A stretch of DNA of 23,260 nucleotides from positions 1 to 23,260 of the IMG/VR virus record IMGVR_UViG_3300044655_002370; one strand, given 5' to 3'. Both the position numbers and the translations under genes were made by a program. Below the pieces are notes generated by a model. The model was not told the DNA's origin, ran no database searches, and was given only the letters and a program-made list of their open reading frames with translations. This DNA comes from a virus. The stretch's first letter is position 1. Each line of letters starts with the position of its first letter. Positions 4,688 to 22,481 of the stretch are shown here, one piece after another.

Positions 4688-7600
4688 CTATGTATTATTA
4701 GATAGGAATAGTAAAGAAGCTTGAACTAATGCATTTACATTTATTGTATTAGATGTATTTCCTTTAATGTTTCCAGTTACTTCTAGCGTCGTTCCGTCGA
4801 AAGTTATATTAGCTTCAGCATTAGCGGATGTCACAGTTCCATCTGAAGTTAAAACTCGATTATCAACAGAATTTGTAATTGCCGAGAAGCCTGTACCTGA
4901 ACTACCGCTAGTACCTGATGTGCCACTTGATCCAGATGTACCTGATGTACCAGAAGATCCGCTAGTACCTGAAGTACCACTTGAACCTGATGTACCTGCG
5001 ATTGCCCCAGTTGATGTCAATACAAATGAATAATTAGTACTTCCTTCAGTATACCATTTAATATTATGGGCTGATGAATCATCGTTATTACAATAGATCT
5101 TAACAATCATTCTATTAGTAGGATCAATCGTAGTAGTAGTAAGTACTAAATCCATTAAAGTTAATACTGGATTTGTAGAATCTACCCATCCTATTAATGG
5201 AGTGTCAGTAGTCAATATAGGACCGATTCCTGTACCTGCTGAATTTGCTAATTGTATTGTAGCATATGCTTGAATATGATCATTCGCTGCAGGTTTTAAG
5301 AAATGTAAATGAAATTGTTGAGATCCTGCAGGTATAACCGCAAATCCTAATTCTGGGGTTATAAAACTAGATATAAGAATATTATTTGTACTACCAGATA
5401 AAGAAGTAGTTACTATTTGTTGAGTTGTAGATAAAGGAGTTATATTTAAATCTTTATAACTATTGATTCCAGTAGAAACCGATTGATTAAAGTAATAAAC
5501 TTGACCTGCAGATATTCCATTAATACCGCTAGTTCCAGAAGATCCGCTAGTACCTGAAGTACCACTTGTTCCTGAGCTACCAGATGTTCCATCAGTACCT
5601 GAAGTACCATCTATTCCTGAAGTACCGTTAGTTCCATCAATGCCGCTTGTTCCACTAGTACCATCAATACCTGAAGTACCTGACGTTCCAGATTCTCCCG
5701 AAGTACCACTAGTACCGTCTATTCCGCTTGTACCAGATGTTCCTGATTCTCCACTAGTACCTGAAGTACCACTTGTTCCTGAAGATCCACTAGTACCAGA
5801 TTCTCCACTAGTACCTGAAGATCCACTAGTACCATCTATTCCACTAGTACCTGAAGATCCACTAGTACCATCTATTCCACTAGTACCTGAAATACCATCA
5901 ATACCTGAAGTACCACTTGTTCCAGAAGAACCACTAGTACCATCTATACCTGAAGTACCTGATGTACCATCTATTCCACTAGTACCAGATGTACCATCGA
6001 TACCTGATGTTCCAGATGTACCGCTTGTTCCTGAGCTACCTGATGTACCGTCAATACCACTTGTTCCGCTTGTTCCAGATTCTCCTGAAGTACCATCAAT
6101 ACCGCTAGTACCACTTGTTCCTGAAGAACCATTAGTACCAGATGTACCATCTATTCCTGAAGAACCACTAGAACCAGAGGTTCCGTCAATACCACTAGTA
6201 CCGCTTGTTCCAGATGAACCGCTTGTTCCAGAAGAACCGCTAGTACCATCTATTCCTGAGCTACCAGATGTTCCATCTATTCCACTTGTACCAGATGTAC
6301 CATCAATACCAGAAGTACCACTTGTTCCTGAAGAACCACTAGTACCACTTGTACCATCGATACCTGAAGTACCAGATGTTCCTGATTCTCCGCTTGTACC
6401 TGAAGTACCAGATGTTCCTGATTCTCCGCTTGTACCTGAAGTACCAGATGTTCCTGATTCTCCGCTTGTACCTGAAGTACCATCGATACCCGAAGTACCA
6501 GATGTACCATCAATACCACTTGTACCAGAAGTACCATCAATACCCGAAGTACCGCTTGTTCCAGAAGTACCGTCTATTCCACTTGTTCCAGATGTTCCGT
6601 CTATTCCAGAAGTACCACTTGTCCCTGATTCTCCACTAGTACCAGATGTACCGTCTATACCAGAAGTTCCACTTGTTCCTGAAGAACCACTAGTACCATC
6701 GATACCTGAAGTACCTGAGGTACCATCTATTCCACTTGTACCGGATGTACCGGAAGTTCCGCTTGTTCCACTAGAACCTGAAGTACCATCAATACCACTT
6801 GTTCCTGAGCTACCTGACGTACCGTCAATACCACTTGTTCCAGAAGAACCGTCAATGCCTGATGTACCACTTGATCCTGAGCTACCAGATGTACCGCTTG
6901 ATCCTGAGCTACCAGATGTACCACTTGTTCCTGAAGTACCGTCTATTCCACTTGTACCAGATGTTCCATCTATTCCGCTTGTTCCAGATGTTCCATCTAT
7001 TCCGCTTGTTCCAGAAGAACCATTGATACCTGAAGTACCGCTTGAACCTGAACTACCAGAAGAGCCACTAGAACCTGAACTACCAGATGTACCATCAGTG
7101 CCACTAGTACCGGATGTACCATCAGTGCCACTAGTACCAGATGTACCATCGATGCCGCTAGTACCTGAAGTACCATCAATACCTGAAGTACCAGATGTAC
7201 CATCAATACCGCTAGTACCGGAAGTACCATCAATACCTGAAGTACCACTTGAACCACTAGAACCCGATGATCCTGAAGTACCTGAGGTCCCGCTGATACC
7301 TTCTTGCATAGATTCAAGTATAGATAAATGAGCATAGTCATTTACATCTACTGTGACGTCTAGAGGTATTCTAATTTCAAGTGTGTGTAAACCAGATAAA
7401 ATGTTCTCAACATTAAATATACATGGTATAGTTAAATGATTTCCAGTAGAATTAAAGAAATATGTAGTTGATGCAATAGTTGATCCATCAATTAAAAGAT
7501 CAAATTGTTTTAATCCAATAGTTGTTGCAAATGCAGAAAAACTAAGATTAATTAATAATGTACTTCCAGTAAAAGAAGTATACTGAGTCGTCCACTCAGT

Positions 7601-7756
7601 AACTATTGTGGAACCTGCTCTAGATGTTGCAGGAACATTATCCAATAATTGTGTGATATTTAGATATCCACCAGATTCTCCACTTGTTCCTGATGTACCA
7701 GATCCGCCTGGTCCACCTAAAGGGAATCGGTCAGTTACAGAATACCCATATGGCAT
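4688..7756 (-). CDS. giant collagen-like tail fibre/adhesin protein
   Basis: This 1022-residue protein begins with [11 protein letters not shown] and a short [10 protein letters not shown] linker. A globular beta domain spans about 28-150. An uninterrupted collagen-like region of about 198 G-x-x triplets spans 153-748, built of [15 protein letters not shown] and GIN and containing no proline. A second beta domain spans about 749-905 (starts AGQVYYFNQ, includes [18 protein letters not shown]). A second short collagen-like stretch of about a dozen triplets follows, then a C-terminal part with [18 protein letters not shown] and [12 protein letters not shown]. That 'RVLTSDGT' motif recurs in T4-like phage fibres near the C-terminal tip. 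The protein probably forms a long trimeric stalk presenting two globular knobs. Its gene follows the 89-residue gene, with an A/T leader holding a 7-bp hairpin. Function is inferred. Confidence 0.75.
5516..7300 (-). repeat. collagen-like coding repeat (about 198 G-x-x triplets)
   Basis: This is a degenerate 9-base tandem repeat inside the 1022-residue gene, with a common 18/27-base higher order (G-I-D G-T-S G-T-S). Codons vary (GGT/GGA; ACT/ACA; AGT/AGC/TCT/TCA), so the protein repeat is conserved more strictly than the DNA. The glycine register runs unbroken from residue 153 to 747. The antisense strand stays open in several frames here because of composition, producing Pro/Val-rich shadow frames that should not be annotated. 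Repeats of this type can change in length by recombination or slippage. Confidence 0.9.
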
Positions 7757-10605: not shown

Positions 10606-11067
10606 TTATAAGATTACTGATATACTTAAAGCTAGTGCAATAAATAATGCTGAAAAATAAACTGATCCGTATATAAGATCTGATCGACGATATTCGTTAA
10701 ACTTAAATCCTATCTGAAGAATATATCCATAGAATGCATCTGTTTGAATTCTTTCATAATCAACTTTAATAGCATCAAGTATTCCCTCTTTTGTTAGGAA
10801 ATCATTATACCGATTCATTTTTTCAGCAACTAATTTAAGTTCTACTGATTCTTGTGAAGTTTCCGAATATAATAATAATTCAGGATTTAAATCAATTCCT
10901 ATATACATATTTGAATTCGAATCAACTTTTAATCCTATTTCATCAAGCTTCCCTTGAGAATTTAGTTCAGCGATAATTTTTTTAAATTTTGAATACTTCG
11001 TTAATTCTTCAACATGCTTAGCAAGTCTCTTGTATATCCTAGTCGGTTCAATATAATCAAGTATCAT
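10606..11067 (-). CDS. tail-anchored protein downstream of sigma factor
   Basis: This 153-residue protein has a charged N-terminal region of about 130 residues and one C-terminal hydrophobic helix (about 131-152, [22 protein letters not shown]), so it is predicted to be tail-anchored with its bulk in the cytoplasm. The soluble part includes [20 protein letters not shown] and a strand pair [15 protein letters not shown]. Its ATG overlaps the TGA stop of the sigma factor by four bases (ATGA, 11067-11064), so the two are translationally coupled. A membrane protein coupled to a sigma factor is reminiscent of sigma/anti-sigma pairs, but it shows no recognised anti-sigma motif and that role is only a hypothesis. 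Confidence 0.65.
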
Positions 11068-11690
11068 AATAATATAAATTTTATTTTTTCTTCAAATTGA
11101 GGATTCTTCTTTAGTATAGACACTCTAATATCTAATCTAATTTTTCTTAATTTTGTTTTAACAGTATTCTCATTTATTTCATAATCCAGAGCAATCTGTC
11201 TAACTTTTTTATGGTTTATCATTTTATCAATTGCGATATTTTTTAATAATTCGTCTTCTATTAAAAATATCTCATCTATAGTAGTTTGATATAACATATC
11301 AATATCTCCAAAAGTATCAGATTCTACCAAATCTCCTGGCTTATCTACTTTTGCAAATACTGTCTCAATATCATAATGTGAATTCTTTTTTAATTGATGT
11401 AGATAAAAAAGAGTTTCATTTCTAGCAATAGTATAGATCCACGTGGTAAATCTACCTTTTTCAAAATCAAATTGAGCAATATTCTTAAAAATCTTTTTTA
11501 ATGTAAACTGCAGAGCTTCTTCTGTATCAAATTCATTTTTACAAAATTTCCAAATATAATATTTCAATTTTGGATAAATTAATGAAGCTAATTCATTAGT
11601 TTCACGAGTAGTACTTTCTTTACGTAGAAGGCGTTCAGATATTTCTTGAATTCTCTCGTTAATTTTTATGTTAGTTGATTCATATCCCAT
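11064..11690 (-). CDS. phage-encoded ECF-type sigma-70 family sigma factor
   Basis: This 208-residue protein probably redirects host RNA polymerase, most likely to late phage promoters. Region 2 spans about 36-102: helices with [32 protein letters not shown] and the diagnostic [19 protein letters not shown] (F-x-x-W-x-Y-x-I-A-R-N, promoter melting/-10 recognition). Region 4 spans about 142-192, with a helix-turn-helix at about 161-186 ([20 protein letters not shown]). The two-domain layout and length match ECF sigma factors, whereas T4 gp55 is a divergent sigma lacking a normal region 4. It starts three bases after the small gene upstream and is coupled to a tail-anchored protein downstream. 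Target promoters are unknown. Confidence 0.85.
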
Positions 11691-15010: not shown

Positions 15011-16675
15011 TTAATTTACTTTTTTAGGTCGGGGTACAATTGATTTAATTTGAATATTTACTGGCCCTAATGAATCTGGTGTAATTCCAGTAGAGTAAAT
15101 ATTTCCATAACGATCAGTAAAACCTCCTCTAACTATTGGAAGTTCATGTAAACTAACGATAATATCATTAAATTCATCGAGTCCAATATCAACAGCCGAC
15201 GGATTTTTAATCTTAGAAACTTCATTTTTCTGAGAAATAATATTTATTGAAACTGAATCTACTCCATTTATCTCTTCAATAATCTTAATTAAATCACTTT
15301 TAGGCAATCTCGTTAACCTAGTATTCTGTATAAAATAGTCTCCGATTGAATTTAAAATATCTCTTTTAATAATATCTGTTGAAACATCATCAAAAACAAT
15401 AATTGATGTATTGATTACATATAAACTAGGAATTGGATCAATTATTTGAATTTCCGTTGAAATAAGTTTAGTTCCACATTTCTCAATATATTGTAGAAGT
15501 TGATTCTTTTGATAAGTATCTAATATAAACCTATTAATATTTGCACTAAAGTATTCTTGTGCAACACTAAATGTTTTTCTAATATCTGGAATCACAAATA
15601 AATTCAACATTCTATTATCTGTTTCATCTAGCGAAACATTAATAATTGAAAATAATTTTAATTTACGTAATACGTTTTCATAGTGATCAGTATTTACAAG
15701 AGCAAAACTTTTAGATTGTCTAGGCGCAAGTAATCGAGTTAATTTAGAGTCTTCTGAATTTGCACCAAAGAATGGAGCATTTGAGGATGTTATTTCAATA
15801 TATTCATTTAATTCAATCTCTTCTCCAAGTAAACTAAATCCTGTATCAACGAATTCAAATTTAATACTACTTAAATCTTCAGTTAAGATATTTCCGTTTG
15901 CACCTTCAGTAATAAGATATTCCACAACAATCTCTGCTCCACGATTAGGTATCTTTCCATAATTTCCATTACCGAAAAATAAATCAATTCCACTAGTCAT
16001 TCCAGTTTTTATCATAAATGCCTTATCTCCTCTCGGCATATCTAATATTGACTCGTATTTTGTCCACTGTTCTCCATTTACTGATACTTTAACTAGGAAA
16101 TTATCAATATAGTAATTTTGAGGACTTCCTATTGAGAAGCTTTCAACCGGTTCTCCCTTAGAGACAACTGTTTGAGATTCAATAGTCCCCTGACGTATTG
16201 CTAATTTTAATCCATTATTTGAACCAGCTAATGAAAATTTTATTTCATCTTGTGGAAGATCTAAAATATAAGTTAATCCATTATTTGTACATCTAATTCT
16301 AGATAAATTTGGAATAATTACAAGATCTACTGGTGGATCGGCTGAACCTGCACCAGTGGATAAACTAATTTCGCCAACTGATGATACTGCTCTACTCACA
16401 TTATGTCCAGCCAAAGTCGCTAGTGAATAAATTGAAGTTAATCGAGTAGCTTCATTTATATTTAATTCAGTAATAGAATCCTCTACATAAAAGAATACTA
16501 ATTGAGTTAAATTTTCAACAACTACTAAAAGTTGTCCAAATGGTGAAGCTGATGTAAATATTGCTTTACTTTGACTATATTTAGAAGTCAAATAATTTAT
16601 TGACTGTGTTAATAAGTCATCAACGTAAATACTCAGCTGCTTGAATACTGTATAATTATCTACTATTTTTGCCAT
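15011..16675 (-). CDS. baseplate wedge protein, T4 gp6-like (baseplate J family)
   Basis: This 554-residue protein is a predicted core wedge subunit of the contractile-tail baseplate; in T4 gp6 dimers form the inner ring linking six wedges. The N-terminal helical part ends with the characteristic RLTSIYSLATLAGHNVSRAV (about 78-97), followed by a beta stretch GEISLSTG. The middle is beta-rich (ISLAGSN-type repeats, LFFGNGNYGKIP at about 232-243 as in baseplate J-like domains). The C-terminal half contains the J-like region with TRLLAPRQSKSFALVNTDHYE and a repeated alpha/beta domain (DIIKRDILNSIGDYFIQNTR). T4 gp6 is 660 residues. It is the first gene of the leftward unit, with an ATG in an A/T-rich context lacking a Shine-Dalgarno. 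Confidence 0.85.
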   Translation of the reverse strand: MAKIVDNYTVFKQLSIYVDDLLTQSINYLTSKYSQSKAIFTSASPFGQLLVVVENLTQLVFFYVEDSITELNINEATRLTSIYSLATLAGHNVSRAVSSVGEISLSTGAGSADPPVDLVIIPNLSRIRCTNNGLTYILDLPQDEIKFSLAGSNNGLKLAIRQGTIESQTVVSKGEPVESFSIGSPQNYYIDNFLVKVSVNGEQWTKYESILDMPRGDKAFMIKTGMTSGIDLFFGNGNYGKIPNRGAEIVVEYLITEGANGNILTEDLSSIKFEFVDTGFSLLGEEIELNEYIEITSSNAPFFGANSEDSKLTRLLAPRQSKSFALVNTDHYENVLRKLKLFSIINVSLDETDNRMLNLFVIPDIRKTFSVAQEYFSANINRFILDTYQKNQLLQYIEKCGTKLISTEIQIIDPIPSLYVINTSIIVFDDVSTDIIKRDILNSIGDYFIQNTRLTRLPKSDLIKIIEEINGVDSVSINIISQKNEVSKIKNPSAVDIGLDEFNDIIVSLHELPIVRGGFTDRYGNIYSTGITPDSLGPVNIQIKSIVPRPKKVN

Positions 16676-16792
16676 TTAGCAAAGTTATTTATGTTATTTA
16701 TTCAATTATATTATATTTCAGACAATTTAATATAATACTTTCGATTTCGATAAAGAATCTTATTAGATAAATAGAATAAAGAAAATACTGCA
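16676..16792. promoter_or_regulatory. divergent control region between leftward and rightward late units
   Basis: This is the 117-base, nearly all-A/T gap between the gp6-like gene (minus) and the amidoligase-like gene (plus). It must hold promoters for both directions. Candidate elements on the plus strand are TATAAT inside AATATAATAC near 16730-16738 and GATAAATA at 16766-16773, about 20 bases before the ATG. On the minus strand, AATAAATAACATAAATAAC lies just ahead of the gp6-like start. A tandem TTTCGA repeat (16739-16750) could be an operator or spacer. No convincing -35 partner is visible, so the exact promoters are unresolved. Confidence 0.5.
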
Positions 16793-18112
16793 ATGTTTAA
16801 ATCATTAGATAAAAAGAGCATATATGATAGTTCACAAATATCTTTTTGTTTTGAATTCTTTTCTCCTATGCGAAAAATGGATGCTGCTGCAAAAATATCA
16901 CGTGCACTTGGAAAAAATATTAAATGGTTTAAAGAAGTAAAATCAAATTTTGTACCAACGAATGAAGTATTTAAACTTGCGCCAACCTATTCAAATGGAT
17001 ATAAGGAAATGCAATTAAGTACAGGTTTTATGCCATATCAAGAAGCAGTTCATATGTATTTAAAAGTATCGAATATTATTGAAGCTATCGGTTTTACTAC
17101 AGAGAGATGTAGAGTTAAAACAACTCTTAAATTAAATGAAAAGAAACTTGATTTGCCATATGGTCTTGAGAAATTAAATAAACTTAAATATCTCATCAGT
17201 TTAGATGAAAAAGCTCTATTTGAATTATGGCCACAGCCAATGAATGAAAATAGATTAATTTATCAAAACCATCTACAATATGTTCAGCCTAGGCGACTGT
17301 ATGACATGGTACTAACTGAGTCTTTAATACAAAGGGGCGAATCTATTGATTTAAATTTCCCAGAATCAGATTTCTTTGCAACTGATTTTTCTGAAATACG
17401 TGAAGGCAAACTTATTGTTAATTATATTAGCGGAAAGGATTATACTCAAAAAAAGAAAGAGGCAATTGAATCGCTTAATATTATAATAGAACATGCATAC
17501 GATACCCTAGTTGAAAATTATAATTATTCAAATCAGGAAAAAATTAGAATTTCTGAAATGGTGAGTGATTTTAGAACAGCAATTGACTCTACTAGAACAT
17601 TATTAGGTTTCAGGTCAGCTTTTCCAGATATTGGATTATATGTTGATTTAAAACAGGTACCTCATTTACTTGAATCACATTATCAACAGATACGAGAAAG
17701 AATATTTAAAATTGTAATAGGCGGTGGAATAACTGAAGGTGTTCTTAACTATGATACTAATCGTCAAGTGTTACAGATAAAAGGTGCTGAATTAAGACGA
17801 AGTATTCTTCTTGAAGGAATAGAATTTTATGAGTGTACAGTTGAAGGTGATGTTAAAGGATGTCTTTTTGAAAATTGTATCGTTCGTAATTCTAAATTAA
17901 GCGAGTGTACAATCTTTTCAAATAATAGGATTAAGTTTTCTAAATTAATAGATTGTGATTATTTAGGAGAATCAAATGAAGTAGTTTCAAGTTTTTTAGA
18001 TAATCCTGATACAAAGATGATTAATGCTGATTTAAAAGAGTGTTTAGTTAATAGAGGAAAGGTTACTCTAAATTCAGAAATAGATAAGTCAACTCTAATA
18101 ATTAATAAATAA
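16793..18112 (+). CDS. amidoligase-like protein with C-terminal beta-helix-like segment
   Basis: This 439-residue protein shows, in order, the landmarks of phage amidoligase (COOH-NH2 ligase superfamily) proteins: SFCFEFFSP (17-25) for the usual 'gvEfE', KEMQLSTGFMPYQEAV (71-86) for the 'ElvSPplpy' strand, FTTERCRVKTTLKLN (101-115) where active members have the 'cGlHvhis' strand, LNKLKYLISLDEKALFELWP (128-147), and IVNYISGKDYTQKKKEA (208-224) for the 'yiEfRyigGkdYekk' motif. The His of the third motif and the E-x-R of the last are missing, so catalysis is doubtful. Residues about 325-395 are a Cys-patterned, pentapeptide/beta-helix-like tail (ECTVEGDVKGCLFENCIVRN). Among structural genes it may serve as a virion or assembly protein. 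The family match is from remembered motifs. Confidence 0.55.
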   Translation: MFKSLDKKSIYDSSQISFCFEFFSPMRKMDAAAKISRALGKNIKWFKEVKSNFVPTNEVFKLAPTYSNGYKEMQLSTGFMPYQEAVHMYLKVSNIIEAIGFTTERCRVKTTLKLNEKKLDLPYGLEKLNKLKYLISLDEKALFELWPQPMNENRLIYQNHLQYVQPRRLYDMVLTESLIQRGESIDLNFPESDFFATDFSEIREGKLIVNYISGKDYTQKKKEAIESLNIIIEHAYDTLVENYNYSNQEKIRISEMVSDFRTAIDSTRTLLGFRSAFPDIGLYVDLKQVPHLLESHYQQIRERIFKIVIGGGITEGVLNYDTNRQVLQIKGAELRRSILLEGIEFYECTVEGDVKGCLFENCIVRNSKLSECTIFSNNRIKFSKLIDCDYLGESNEVVSSFLDNPDTKMINADLKECLVNRGKVTLNSEIDKSTLIINK

Positions 18113-18132: not shown

Positions 18133-19026
18133 ATGCTTGTTTATCAAAATTTGCAATCTATAAAACGATTGACTAATGCAAGTTTAACTTCATTAATTGA
18201 TGTAACTAACTTAAATTTTAAGAAATTATCAGATTCAAATTTAGAATTTTTAAATAATATTAATTATGATGAGATAGCAAATTCATTTAATGTATATTCT
18301 GGTAAATTTGAGTTAGTTGAAGTTACGACCTCGTTAACTGTTACAGAAAGCGGTATTCCTACATTTACTATTCCATCTTCTGGAAATGCAGTAGGCCGAT
18401 CATTATTAGTGGATGTTGCTGAAACCCGGAGACAGAGATTTACTGATTTTCCAACATATCCAACCGTTGGTGTTCCAGGAGAAATTGTTTATACTGGTGT
18501 CGCTGGAATAGATCCAGTATTTGGTGAAGATTTTATTGGATATTTACATAGTAAAGGATGGGTCAGTTTAACAAATGACGCCGATGGAGGTAGTGCAGCA
18601 AATGGACACAAGATATTAATCGAGTCTACTGAAGTGCTAACAATTGATGCTAATTATCAATATTGGATTTATGGAAATTTTACAATTGATGGAATTGTTG
18701 ATAACTATGGTGAATTAGTTATTGCCAATGGAACCTTAATTATTTCTCCGAGTGGTCAAATTAATAATTATGGTGCAGGAATAGTTAAAATAGTTAATCT
18801 AGCTCTCGGTACAAGTGTTCAAGTAGTAATACAAAATTTCATAGCCACTGCAGGTATTCCATTAACTATTACACATGGATTAAATACCAAAGACTTTGTA
18901 TATAGCACGAGAGACGGAAATGTGCTAGTCGATATTGATATATCATATATTGATGATAATTCATTCTATTTAACTTCAACTGGCGATATAACCGATGGTA
19001 AAATTGTGATACAAGCAAAAATTTAA
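18133..19026 (+). CDS. putative fibre/adaptor protein with beta-solenoid segment
   Basis: This 297-residue protein has an N-terminal helical part of about 50 residues (MLVYQNLQSIKRLTNASLTS... LEFLNNINYDEI) that may dock it to the baseplate. A beta-rich body follows. Residues about 155-220 form short strands with repeated I-D-G and N-Y-G turns (LTIDANYQYWIYGNF, TIDGIVDNYGELVIANG, IISPSGQINNYGAGIVKI), like a beta-helix rung pattern. The C-terminus (ITHGLNTKDFVYSTRDGNVL...) is another strand-rich module. It is followed nine bases later by the 795-residue repeat fibre, so a connector or fibre base is the best guess. No named family is recognised. Confidence 0.6.
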   Translation: MLVYQNLQSIKRLTNASLTSLIDVTNLNFKKLSDSNLEFLNNINYDEIANSFNVYSGKFELVEVTTSLTVTESGIPTFTIPSSGNAVGRSLLVDVAETRRQRFTDFPTYPTVGVPGEIVYTGVAGIDPVFGEDFIGYLHSKGWVSLTNDADGGSAANGHKILIESTEVLTIDANYQYWIYGNFTIDGIVDNYGELVIANGTLIISPSGQINNYGAGIVKIVNLALGTSVQVVIQNFIATAGIPLTITHGLNTKDFVYSTRDGNVLVDIDISYIDDNSFYLTSTGDITDGKIVIQAKI

Positions 19027-19035
19027 TATTATATA

Positions 19036-21423
19036 ATGACTAAGAAACTTAATAGTATACCTCAACATAAGAATGTAGGAATTACTCCCGATACTCCTGA
19101 GACAGGCTACAATAAAATATACGCAAAAGATGATGGCATATGGTATGGATTAGATGAGTTCGGTGTAGAAACACCGCTCGGTGCAAACATAATATCGGTA
19201 GACGGTATTACTATTACTGGAGATGGTACTCCGGGAGATCCATTGGCTACCACATTTGATCTGCCGCCCTATTGGTTAGAATATAATGAAACTGACCTTA
19301 CTATATGGAATAACGGTAAAGGGAATATTAGTAGTAATATTTCATATGGTAGCGATGCTCTCAAGAGTAATACTACGGGAACTCGTAATAGTGCACTCGG
19401 AATATATGCTTTATCTAGCAATACAACAGGTAGTAATAATAATGCCCTAGGCTATGATGCACTCGGCAGTAATATTAGCGGAGTAGATAATACTGCAATC
19501 GGTAATCTTGCATTAGAATCAAGTACTGGAAATTATAATACTGCAGTAGGCAGCCAGGCATTACTATCAAATACTGCAGCAGATAATAATACAGCGGTTG
19601 GTGCATATGCTATGCGATTTAATACAAGCGGTACGGAGAATACCGCTTTAGGTAGTAATTCATTATATAATAATACGACAGCCGGTAATAATGTCGGAGT
19701 TGGCAGTTCTACTTTATATAGTAATACAACAGGTTTTGGAAGTGTTGCAATTGGTGGAAGTTCACTAGTCAATAATACAACAGGGTATTTAAATACTGCG
19801 ATAGGTGTTAGCACACTTACCACTAATACTACCGGCCATGATAACGTTGCAGTAGGAGCTGCAGCATTATCTAATAATACAACTGGCAGATTTAATACAG
19901 CGGTTGGTGAAAGTGCATTACAGGATATATCTACTGGAAGACAAAATACAGCAATTGGTTGGTGTGCTTTACTTGCGGCAACATCGGGTAATTATAATAC
20001 TGCGATAGGAGCCGATGCAATAGGAAATGCAAATACTGGTAGTAGTAATGTGGCAGTCGGCGAGTCAGCATTATATTATAATACAAGCGGTGCTAGTAAT
20101 ACTGCAGTAGGAAAGAGCTCATTATTGTCTAATGCAACAGGTATTGTTAATACAGCTATTGGTGCCGTAAGTTTATATGCAAATACCACGGGTTCTTATA
20201 ATGTAGCACTCGGTTATGCATCGATGATTAGTAATACAACGGGCAGATTTAATACAGCAGTAGGTGAGTCGTCGTTACATTATAATACTACAGGAGATGA
20301 AAATACTGCTATCGGTACACGAAGTTTATATACAAACACCACGAGCCAAGGTCTTACAGCAGTTGGATACTCTGCTTTACATAGTAATATAACTGGGACT
20401 AGTCTTACTGCAGTAGGAAAGAATGCATTATCTGGAAATACCTCAGGTTCACAAAATACAGCATTGGGTAATTCTGCACTCAGTAGTAATACTATAGGAA
20501 ATGAAAATACAGCAATCGGTAATCTTGCATTACAATCAAGTACTGGAAATTATAATACGGCAGTCGGCAGCCAAGCATTACTATCAAATACAGCAGATAA
20601 TAATACAGCTGTTGGTGCATATGCGATGCTACTTAATACAAGTGGTATAGAGAATGTAGCTTTAGGTGGATTAGTACTATATAATAATACTACTGGCAAT
20701 ACTAATGTTGGAGTTGGCAGTGCTGCTTTATATAGTAATACAACAGGTTTTGGAAATGTCGGAGTTGGCTATTCTGCTTTATATAATAATACAACCGGTG
20801 AGTATAATACAGCAATCGGTATTAGTACACTTACTAATAATACTACAGGTTATGATAACACTGCAGTAGGAACTTCTGCATTATCTAGTAATACGATAGG
20901 GACTGATAATTGTGCTATTGGGAAAAATGCATTGCAAAATAATGAGGATGGTAGTAGTAATATTGCGCTTGGCACTGACTCATTATTATCAAATATTGGC
21001 GGCGGTAGTAATGTTGCAATAGGCTTTAATGCAATGTACAATAATGAAAGCAGTGGTAATGTAGCTATTGGAACGAGAACCTTATATAGTAACACTACTG
21101 GCGATAATAATACAAGTGTTGGGATCGATTCATTAGGGTCTAATACTGCAGGTGATTCTAATATAGCGATTGGTTTTAATGCGATGTATTCTAATACTAC
21201 AGGTAATGGAAATATTGCAATAGGCGCAGCAAGCAGCAGTGGAAATTTTAATAATTCAATACTCATAGGTACATTTGCAACAGCTACTGCAAATAATCAA
21301 TTCGTAGTCGGATCAGCCGGCTCTAATGCTGGTACTATCACAACTGAGTCAATTACTCCAGATAAAACGTGGACAGTTAGAATAAATGGAGTTAATTATA
21401 AAATACCACTATTGACTGCTTAA
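19036..21423 (+). CDS. large NTTG-repeat tail fibre protein, paralogue of the 534-residue fibre
   Basis: In this 795-residue protein, residues 1-50 hold a fibre attachment-like segment (PETGYNKIYAKDDGIWYGLD, then GVETPLG), widespread at phage fibre N-termini. A linker and the junction LPPYWLEYNETDLTIWNNG (77-95) precede about 37 repeats of 17 (sometimes 16) residues with consensus NTAxGxxALxxNTTGxx (about 118-745). The C-terminal cap contains TATANNQFVVGS and WTVRINGVNYKIPLL. Junction and cap match the 534-residue fibre (1540-3144), but this one has no collagen-like shaft. The repeats suggest a YadA-head-like trimeric beta-roll. An internal block is duplicated with a 1017-base offset. Host-surface binding is inferred. 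Confidence 0.7.
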   Translation: MTKKLNSIPQHKNVGITPDTPETGYNKIYAKDDGIWYGLDEFGVETPLGANIISVDGITITGDGTPGDPLATTFDLPPYWLEYNETDLTIWNNGKGNISSNISYGSDALKSNTTGTRNSALGIYALSSNTTGSNNNALGYDALGSNISGVDNTAIGNLALESSTGNYNTAVGSQALLSNTAADNNTAVGAYAMRFNTSGTENTALGSNSLYNNTTAGNNVGVGSSTLYSNTTGFGSVAIGGSSLVNNTTGYLNTAIGVSTLTTNTTGHDNVAVGAAALSNNTTGRFNTAVGESALQDISTGRQNTAIGWCALLAATSGNYNTAIGADAIGNANTGSSNVAVGESALYYNTSGASNTAVGKSSLLSNATGIVNTAIGAVSLYANTTGSYNVALGYASMISNTTGRFNTAVGESSLHYNTTGDENTAIGTRSLYTNTTSQGLTAVGYSALHSNITGTSLTAVGKNALSGNTSGSQNTALGNSALSSNTIGNENTAIGNLALQSSTGNYNTAVGSQALLSNTADNNTAVGAYAMLLNTSGIENVALGGLVLYNNTTGNTNVGVGSAALYSNTTGFGNVGVGYSALYNNTTGEYNTAIGISTLTNNTTGYDNTAVGTSALSSNTIGTDNCAIGKNALQNNEDGSSNIALGTDSLLSNIGGGSNVAIGFNAMYNNESSGNVAIGTRTLYSNTTGDNNTSVGIDSLGSNTAGDSNIAIGFNAMYSNTTGNGNIAIGAASSSGNFNNSILIGTFATATANNQFVVGSAGSNAGTITTESITPDKTWTVRINGVNYKIPLLTA
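19480..19890 (+). repeat. first copy of internal duplicated block in the fibre gene
   Basis: Starting at the GGA codon at 19480, about eight to nine 17-residue repeats here align with the block starting at 20497. The matching order includes the same irregular 16-residue unit (ALESSTGNYNTAVGSQALL), an 'AYAM' unit, and 'LYSNTTGF' and 'STLTTNTTG' units. DNA identity is high in the first 120 bases, with one codon difference (an extra Ala codon in this copy). The end is approximate. Confidence 0.7.
20497..20900 (+). repeat. second copy of internal duplicated block in the fibre gene
   Basis: This block lies 1017 bases (339 codons; 20 repeat units, one of them 16 residues long) after the first copy. 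It keeps the order of distinctive units, including ALQSSTGNYNTAVGSQALL and 'AYAM', and the LYSNTTGF unit. It has since diverged, mostly at third positions and with one codon lost. This indicates growth of the fibre by block duplication rather than only by single-unit slippage. The end is approximate. Confidence 0.7.
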
Positions 21424-21494: not shown

Positions 21495-22481
21495 ATGCAC
21501 GATTCATTTAATGAAGAAGAAGCAGCTCGTTTTTTAGAAGAGCAAGATCGAATTCATGGAGTAAATACTATATCTATCGAAGAAGAAAAAGAGTCAATCG
21601 TTACTCCTTTACCTCAATCAAATATTCGTCCAATATTACCTGAACTATCTGCGGCTGAGGAATCGTCTTGGAAATTATTAGATCTTCAATCTCTTCCATC
21701 ACAAGGATTATTTTATCCTGAAGGGACTGAGCTATTATTAAGATCTGCTAAAACTAAGGAAATTAGACATTGGTCTACTATTGATGAGCATGATCCACTT
21801 GATGTTCGAGATAAAATTAATTTTATTTTAAATGCATGTACTAAAATTAAACCGCGAACAGGGAGACCTTTAAACTTTAATGATTTTTTAGAAATCGATA
21901 GATATCATATATTATTTAGATTATATGAATTAACTTTCCCCAATCAAGAAAATAAGCTTTTTGCAAATATTAAATGTAGTAACGATGGAATTATCAATAA
22001 TACTCAAGTATTAAGCGCTAATTTAGTAGGTTTCAAATATCCTGAGGAATTAATGAAATGGTATTCGCCTGAAGAGAGATGTTTTAAAGTAGTATCTGAA
22101 AAATTAAATGAGACTTTTAATTTATATCTACCGACGATTGGAACTGAAAATAGATTTAGAACTAAGAGAGCAGATGAGATTAATAGAGGAAGTGAGATCG
22201 ACGAAGCATTCTTTTCATTTGGTCCATATTTAATTCAGGACTGGAGATCAGCTACACCGCAAGCAATAACTGAACTTAGATTTAATTCTCTTGCTTGGCA
22301 AGAGAATAAATTTGTCTTTATTCATAAGTTCACTGAGCAGTTAAAAACAGCAAGTTTAAATAAAGTAGTCAGTGTATGTAGTAAATGTAAAGAGGTTACT
22401 GAGAGCCATGTTTTTTCGACAGGAAGCTTCACTATCAAAGATATTTTCATTGTTTCAGCTGGACTTGATGAACTTATTTAA
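21495..22481 (+). CDS. baseplate hub protein, T4_baseplate family (gp26/gp51-like)
   Basis: This 328-residue protein begins with an acidic, flexible N-terminus (1-60). The signature LPSQGLFYPEGTELLLRSAKTKE (67-89) then matches the 'LPSgGkfYPeg...vRplt.kE' opening of the T4_baseplate family, whose T4 members gp26 and gp51 are needed for hub assembly. It continues with HDPLDVRDKINFILNACTKI (99-118). Near the C-terminus VCSKCKE supplies a CxxC pair, with a further Cys in NIKCSN earlier, so a degenerate zinc-ribbon-like element is possible. T4 gp26 is 208 residues; this one is extended at both ends. It overlaps the next gene by 14 bases. The family assignment is good; the exact T4 counterpart is uncertain. 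Confidence 0.75.
   Translation: MHDSFNEEEAARFLEEQDRIHGVNTISIEEEKESIVTPLPQSNIRPILPELSAAEESSWKLLDLQSLPSQGLFYPEGTELLLRSAKTKEIRHWSTIDEHDPLDVRDKINFILNACTKIKPRTGRPLNFNDFLEIDRYHILFRLYELTFPNQENKLFANIKCSNDGIINNTQVLSANLVGFKYPEELMKWYSPEERCFKVVSEKLNETFNLYLPTIGTENRFRTKRADEINRGSEIDEAFFSFGPYLIQDWRSATPQAITELRFNSLAWQENKFVFIHKFTEQLKTASLNKVVSVCSKCKEVTESHVFSTGSFTIKDIFIVSAGLDELI

Follow-up and report, generated by a model that had tools for sequence, protein, structure and literature searches.

An amidoligase-fold protein of large T4-related phages that has lost most of its active-site residues and whose gene stands in a neck, baseplate and fibre setting

What is the role of a phage protein that retains the order of amidoligase motifs, stands beside fibre genes and seems to have lost the residues needed for catalysis? 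This question is raised by gene X, an open reading frame of exactly 16793–18112 on the plus strand, with an ATG start and a product of 439 aa, in a virus contig whose 23,260 bases are the whole stretch of DNA analysed here (the window). A preliminary description of this DNA had offered two readings, namely that an enzyme fold was recruited for the structure or assembly of the virion, or that the protein is a divergent ligase that is still active. To our knowledge, phage amidoligases are known mostly by annotation, and their targets are unknown.

Gene X, its relatives and its neighbours

Scans of IMG/VR revealed at least 540 stretches related to X, and the comparison set comprises 168 distinct relatives: 60 with an intact active site, 63 in which the active-site histidine has become glutamine (His-to-Gln) and 45, at 40–100% identity to the window protein, that form its own clade, in which most of the site is gone. 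Five distant homologues were found by tblastn in phage records, each of 462–735 kb. Since relatives were absent from a scan of bacterial and archaeal genomes (one genome per species), the family looks viral. It is apparently an undescribed phage protein family, in which an amidoligase domain is joined to a beta-solenoid tail and which occurs in large T4-related phages among neck, baseplate and fibre genes; a literature search, with the 2009 amidoligase survey of Iyer et al. outside its scope, yielded no amidoligase with a pentapeptide tail and none located in virions. The genes and domains concerned are as follows.

15011–16675 (−): gp6-like baseplate wedge subunit, divergent neighbour of X (PHROG 219, E 5.6e-25)
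16793–18112 (+): gene X, 439-aa amidoligase-fold pseudoenzyme (open reading frame, homologues, AlphaFold pLDDT 87.6, Foldseek)
16793–17755 (+): glutamine-synthetase/amidoligase-like core of X, about residues 1–321 (secondary structure; Foldseek matches to glutamine synthetases and phage amidoligases)
17768–18109 (+): pentapeptide-like right-handed beta-solenoid of X with a Cys ladder, about residues 326–439 (DSSP of the model, Foldseek matches to pentapeptide-repeat proteins, Cys columns)
18133–19026 (+): fibre-like protein of 297 aa, directly after X; N-terminal domain conserved across the intact and pseudoenzyme clades
19036–21423 (+): repeat-rich tail-spike/fibre protein of 795 aa, downstream (PHROG 4636, tail spike)

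The rightward unit beside fibre genes that had been described earlier is present: X starts it, diverging from the gp6-like gene, and the fibre-like gene comes next. Leftward beyond the gp6-like gene come genes for a conserved protein of 81 aa, a protein of 243 aa, the large terminase and a sigma-factor-like protein, in that order. The fibre-like family combines a conserved N-terminal domain of about 150 residues with a highly variable C-terminus (297–1148 aa), as in fibres. A neck, baseplate or fibre gene is found no more than eight genes from X in all 45 pseudoenzyme loci, all 63 His-to-Gln loci and 56 of the 60 intact loci, and in 38 loci of the pseudoenzyme clade and 19 intact loci the next gene after X belongs to the same fibre family. 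A head-closure (Hc2) gene precedes X in 20 intact loci (PHROG 679, E 8e-6; the Pfam T4 neck protein lies just under its cut-off), and a head-tail adaptor (Ad2) gene follows X in 62 of the 63 His-to-Gln loci. The dead clade adjoins the gp6 operon and its intact sister clade stands behind Hc2, both being followed by the same fibre family. This gene order is circumstantial support for a virion role of X.

Other genes were also observed around X. A protein with an S1 RNA-binding domain (PF00575, E 1.4e-16; L048:6875–7999) is encoded directly upstream of X, within a tail module, in 57 His-to-Gln and 8 intact loci, and a relative (L034:6673–7698) of the window gene at 21495–22481 (+; PHROG 36717, E 8.5e-22) lies two genes before X in an intact locus. 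In the large-phage loci L009 and L011 and their relatives, a protein of 470–760 aa that resembles DHH-type phosphoesterases by eye only is encoded at most two genes after X. The window also contains a gene at 4688–7756 (−) for a 1022-aa protein made up mostly of GTSGTSG-type collagen-like repeats, and antisense to it a 563-aa frame at 5640–7331 (+), which is probably open only through the repeat.

The T4 late promoter is TATAAATA, and similar elements stand before X and its neighbours.

16695–16702 (−): AATAAATA element before the divergent gp6-like operon
16766–16773 (+): GATAAATA, element resembling the T4 late promoter, about 20 nt ahead of X, with ATAAAG next to it on the downstream side; conserved upstream of X in the pseudoenzyme clade
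18104–18111 (+): AATAAATA element that overlaps the end of X and stands ahead of the fibre-like gene

An (N)ATAAATA element stands upstream of X, of the fibre gene and of the gp6 operon, and none precedes internal operon genes such as that of the terminase. Either GATAAATA or TATAAATA occurs between −60 and +75 of the X start in 34 of the 45 dead-clade loci, against a background of 3%. These two sequences are not enriched across the window (5 observed, 11 expected), and the promoter claim is based on position and conservation, not on the number of elements. The sigma-factor-like gene at 11064–11690 (−; PHROG 1740, E 8.6e-8), in the terminase/gp6 operon, is conserved in 29 neighbouring clade loci, and its product could be the late sigma factor that recognizes these ATAAATA sequences.

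A late-type promoter element of its own, which makes X something other than a purely operon-bound gene, would also suit a different role, in which X is a late non-virion pseudoenzyme that binds a host protein or metabolite, for instance titrating a host ligase or its substrate, and owes its place among tail genes to shared late expression only. Many phage amidoligases do lie outside virion modules, beside COOH-NH2 ligase, amidotransferase or ATP-grasp genes. However, the pairing of X with the fibre gene persists across the change from intact to dead, and neck and tail neighbours accompany X in several gene orders, which would be unusual for a host-directed effector; we therefore regard such a role as unlikely.

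Replacement of the active-site residues

The motif strands of the family, which we take to carry the metal and ATP ligands as in glutamine synthetase and gamma-glutamylcysteine synthetase, read as follows in the window protein.

16841–16855 (+): strand 1, S17-F-C19-F-E21; first Glu of G-x-E-x-E replaced by Cys, second Glu kept (alignment)
16979–17014 (+): strands 2–3, A63-P-T65-Y-S67 ... Q74 in place of E-P-D-Y-S and the Glu of V-E-L-V-T-G; only S67 kept
17117–17125 (+): His strand, K109-T-T111 in place of H-x-N
17414–17422 (+): E-x-R strand, I208-V-N210 in place of E-x-R (E to I208, R to N210)

Eleven known phage amidoligases conserve E-x-E-x-E, D-x-S-L-R, E, H-x-H and E-x-R, and the 60 intact sequences of the X family show virtually no variation at ten matching site residues (E-x-E, E-x-D-x-S, E, H-x-N, E-x-R). 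The loss of catalytic motifs suspected in the preliminary description was confirmed and extends further than it had stated, since not only the His and E-x-R strands are replaced in the window protein but more acidic positions are gone too (E19 to C, E63 to A, D65 to T, E74 to Q), leaving E21 and S67 as the only survivors of the ten. Throughout the 45 window-clade sequences, eight of the ten residues are replaced or drifting and only E21 and S67 are mostly kept; a few members hold part of the site, L254 for example retaining E-x-R. Outside this clade (n=123), substitutions are limited to the H-x-N strand, with one single-residue exception. AlphaFold places the five motif strands of the window protein where it places those of an intact relative, and this match, together with the confinement of the substitutions to one clade, indicates that the motif loss is not alignment noise.

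The 63 His-to-Gln sequences present a milder alteration, with eight of the ten residues essentially invariant and the H-x-N strand changed, with Gln invariably in place of His and the Asn position occupied by Ser or Gly and only rarely by Asn. This set (e.g., L041, L053 and L067), in which nearly all other site residues are kept, consists of two branches of the tree.

Within the window clade, columns of the old site, including positions that are fixed in all 123 other relatives, rank among the most variable of the protein (variability quantiles of 0.98 for E208, 0.94 for E19 and 0.91 for N111), and F22, T77, T102, E139, Y211, Y217 and N319 are invariant in all 45 sequences. Variable site columns combined with invariant structural positions are the signature of an active site that has relaxed within a fold that is kept. 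Could X instead be a divergent enzyme with a rebuilt active site, comparable to pseudokinases that have other transferase activities? E21 and S67 are largely kept, Lys109 occurs in 30 of the 45 sequences and Asn210 in 28, and residue 193 is acidic in all of them. Nevertheless, most of the old catalytic columns are now highly variable, the positions newly fixed in the clade are mostly hydrophobic or lie in the tail, and no new polar constellation is visible; the case is weak because the old pocket contains no conserved residue that is both new and polar. The divergent active ligase put forward earlier is thus improbable, given the free drift at the metal- and ATP-site positions and the lack of any conserved catalytic set in their stead.

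Fold, descent and selection

For the window protein and the intact relative L028, AlphaFold gave models (mean pLDDT 87.6 and 87.7) that agree in strand order and positions, and Foldseek searches of solved structures with both returned glutamine synthetases first, followed by pentapeptide-repeat proteins, which match the tail. The window model matched glutamine synthetases with E 2e-4 and probability 1.00, and among viral models it matched many 'Amidoligase enzyme' entries, with E down to 1e-10. TM-scores to solved structures are low (0.2–0.3), the significance of the matches coming from local structure and sequence states, and hence the matches are distant. The window protein is thus predicted to have a glutamine-synthetase/GCS-type fold, and the structure model, which had been proposed as a check, shows no unrelated fold.

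Direct searches with the window protein gave no match in Pfam or PHROG, and it missed the curated cut-off of Amidoligase_2 (PF12224) without any match. Its closest catalytically intact relatives, at about 35% identity, lie above that cut-off of 22 bits (L028 23.9, L032 28.7 and L120 26.9 bits), and 20 of 59 family members match Amidoligase_2 at E up to 1. The profile of the pseudoenzyme clade matches that of the intact relatives over its whole length (429 columns, probability 100, E 3.8e-92), and the intact-relative profile aligns with the 11 phage amidoligases with the motif strands in register (P 0.006). The pseudoenzyme-clade profile alone gave no match to the known phage amidoligases (P = 0.22), so the link to amidoligases needs the intact relatives. 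The profile search suggested in the preliminary description therefore succeeds through intermediates above the cut-off, but fails with the window protein alone; the motif order that it had recognized is present, and the motifs align in register with those of relatives in which the amidoligase residues survive. For ATP-grasp families, which it had also named, there was no Pfam match, and the fold matches were glutamine synthetases, with a bifunctional glutathione synthetase low-ranked only. By these profile and motif comparisons, the window protein clearly shares descent with Amidoligase_2 members. That X is unrelated to them and resembles them by chance, as the missing Pfam and PHROG matches of the window protein and the null result of its clade profile might suggest, is very improbable, being refuted by the intermediates that exceed the curated cut-off and opposed by the fold matches and by the alignment of all motif strands in register.

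The Cys-patterned, pentapeptide- or beta-helix-like tail that had been described is likewise present, with Cys at 348, 357, 362, 372, 388 and 417 and strands predicted at about 326–421. In the model, these are regular 3-residue strands, as in a short-coil right-handed beta-helix; the pentapeptide-repeat families of Pfam (PF00805/PF13599) gave no match to the window protein, and the best relatives are under the cut-off. However, the tail had been described as gained, and intact, His-to-Gln and dead sequences all carry it and share its Cys columns. The solenoid is ancestral to the X family. Its acquisition along with the loss of the active site was rejected, as it is already present in intact relatives.

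A tree of 89 representatives, with the ten site columns left out, was built by a quick search, SH-aLRT being its sole measure of support. A single branch (support 100) separates the dead clade, which has an intact clade next to it, from all other sequences, so that one change suffices and a single origin is indicated; its stem is long (0.71–1.07 changes per site). Simple counting gave dN/dS of 0.044–0.063 for the closest pairs and up to 0.21 for all pairs with measurable dS, which is partly saturated, core and tail being alike, and such low values mark X as a maintained pseudoenzyme. Taken together, the alignments and the tree show that most of the active-site residues were lost once, in the monophyletic window clade, which is under purifying selection. 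A gene decaying toward loss, for which the long stem might speak as a burst of change, was rejected on dN/dS values well under 1 in core and tail, and the full-length frames even at 40% identity from the window and the seven invariant residues leave it a negligible chance. No second, intact copy of X was found in six pseudoenzyme-clade contigs of up to 207 kb (possibly incomplete), which argues against a split active/inactive pair so far as the contigs are complete.

Probable role and comparison with known systems

The best explanation overall is that the pseudoenzyme X probably acts without catalysis, by binding, in the assembly or structure of the virion. Between the two readings given at the outset, co-option for structure or assembly is the better one and is well supported, because the fold has been kept, the site was lost once, selection is purifying and the neck/baseplate/fibre position is constant. 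A ligase ancestrally resident in the virion module became a pseudoenzyme once, in the window clade, its role as a scaffold or in assembly probably outliving its chemistry: most of the residues expected to bind metal and ATP were lost and then drifted, and purifying selection preserved the fold, the solenoid and the place beside the fibre gene. Most likely X is made late and acts by binding, either as a scaffold or adaptor for a neck or tail appendage or as a factor in its assembly; this appendage would probably be the fibre of the next gene downstream, and the solenoid would provide the docking surface. The intact relatives may share this function and in addition modify a virion component by amide-bond formation. 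The virion role of X, its late expression and the modifying role of the intact relatives are what we infer from the data above. More tentatively, a glutamine-synthetase-type ligase may now be a true structural component of the neck, baseplate or fibre, its structural role predating the loss of catalysis and active and dead versions coexisting in related large phages.

The X family places an amidoligase among neck, baseplate and fibre genes, and its intact, His-to-Gln and fully degenerate forms, whose genetic surroundings are similar, constitute a natural set for separating binding from chemistry. What the dead clade does would be the non-catalytic role, and differences in phages with intact copies would point to amide modification, perhaps of a fibre or neck protein. 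X is also a clear viral case of an enzyme that has probably become part of the virion or of its assembly while intact sister lineages persist and, if the structural reading is true, active and dead forms of one virion protein can be compared directly.

Among known proteins, UniProt A0A6J5PQ40 of an uncultured Caudovirales phage ('Uncharacterized protein', with no functional annotation) is itself a member of the pseudoenzyme clade, with 76% identity and a TM-score of 0.99 to the window protein and no difference seen. The best solved-structure matches of the two models are glutamine synthetase (8fbp) and, for the intact relative only, gamma-glutamylcysteine synthetase (1v4g, 1va6), from which the X models differ by 9–13% identity, a low global TM-score and the added solenoid, and the window clade also by its missing active-site residues. 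The tail shares the predicted short-coil right-handed beta-helix with the pentapeptide-repeat proteins MfpA, Qnr and AlbG, as seen in Foldseek and profile matches, but has just about 110 residues and lies under the Pfam cut-off, the likeness being one of fold, without evidence of gyrase binding. Closest in kind are the phage amidoligases (PF12224) of LUZ24, phiEco32, PA11 and RIO-1, which have the glutamine-synthetase-type fold and strand order of the X family and share with its intact members E-x-E, D-x-S, E, H-x-N or H-x-H, and E-x-R in the same order. Unlike them, the window clade is without nearly all site residues and carries a C-terminal beta-solenoid. Their genes adjoin those of a COOH-NH2 ligase, an amidotransferase or an ATP-grasp protein, partners typical of amidoligases that do not stand beside X in the window, where the neighbours are gp6, the 81-aa protein, the terminase and the fibre, whereas X in general adjoins neck, baseplate and fibre genes.
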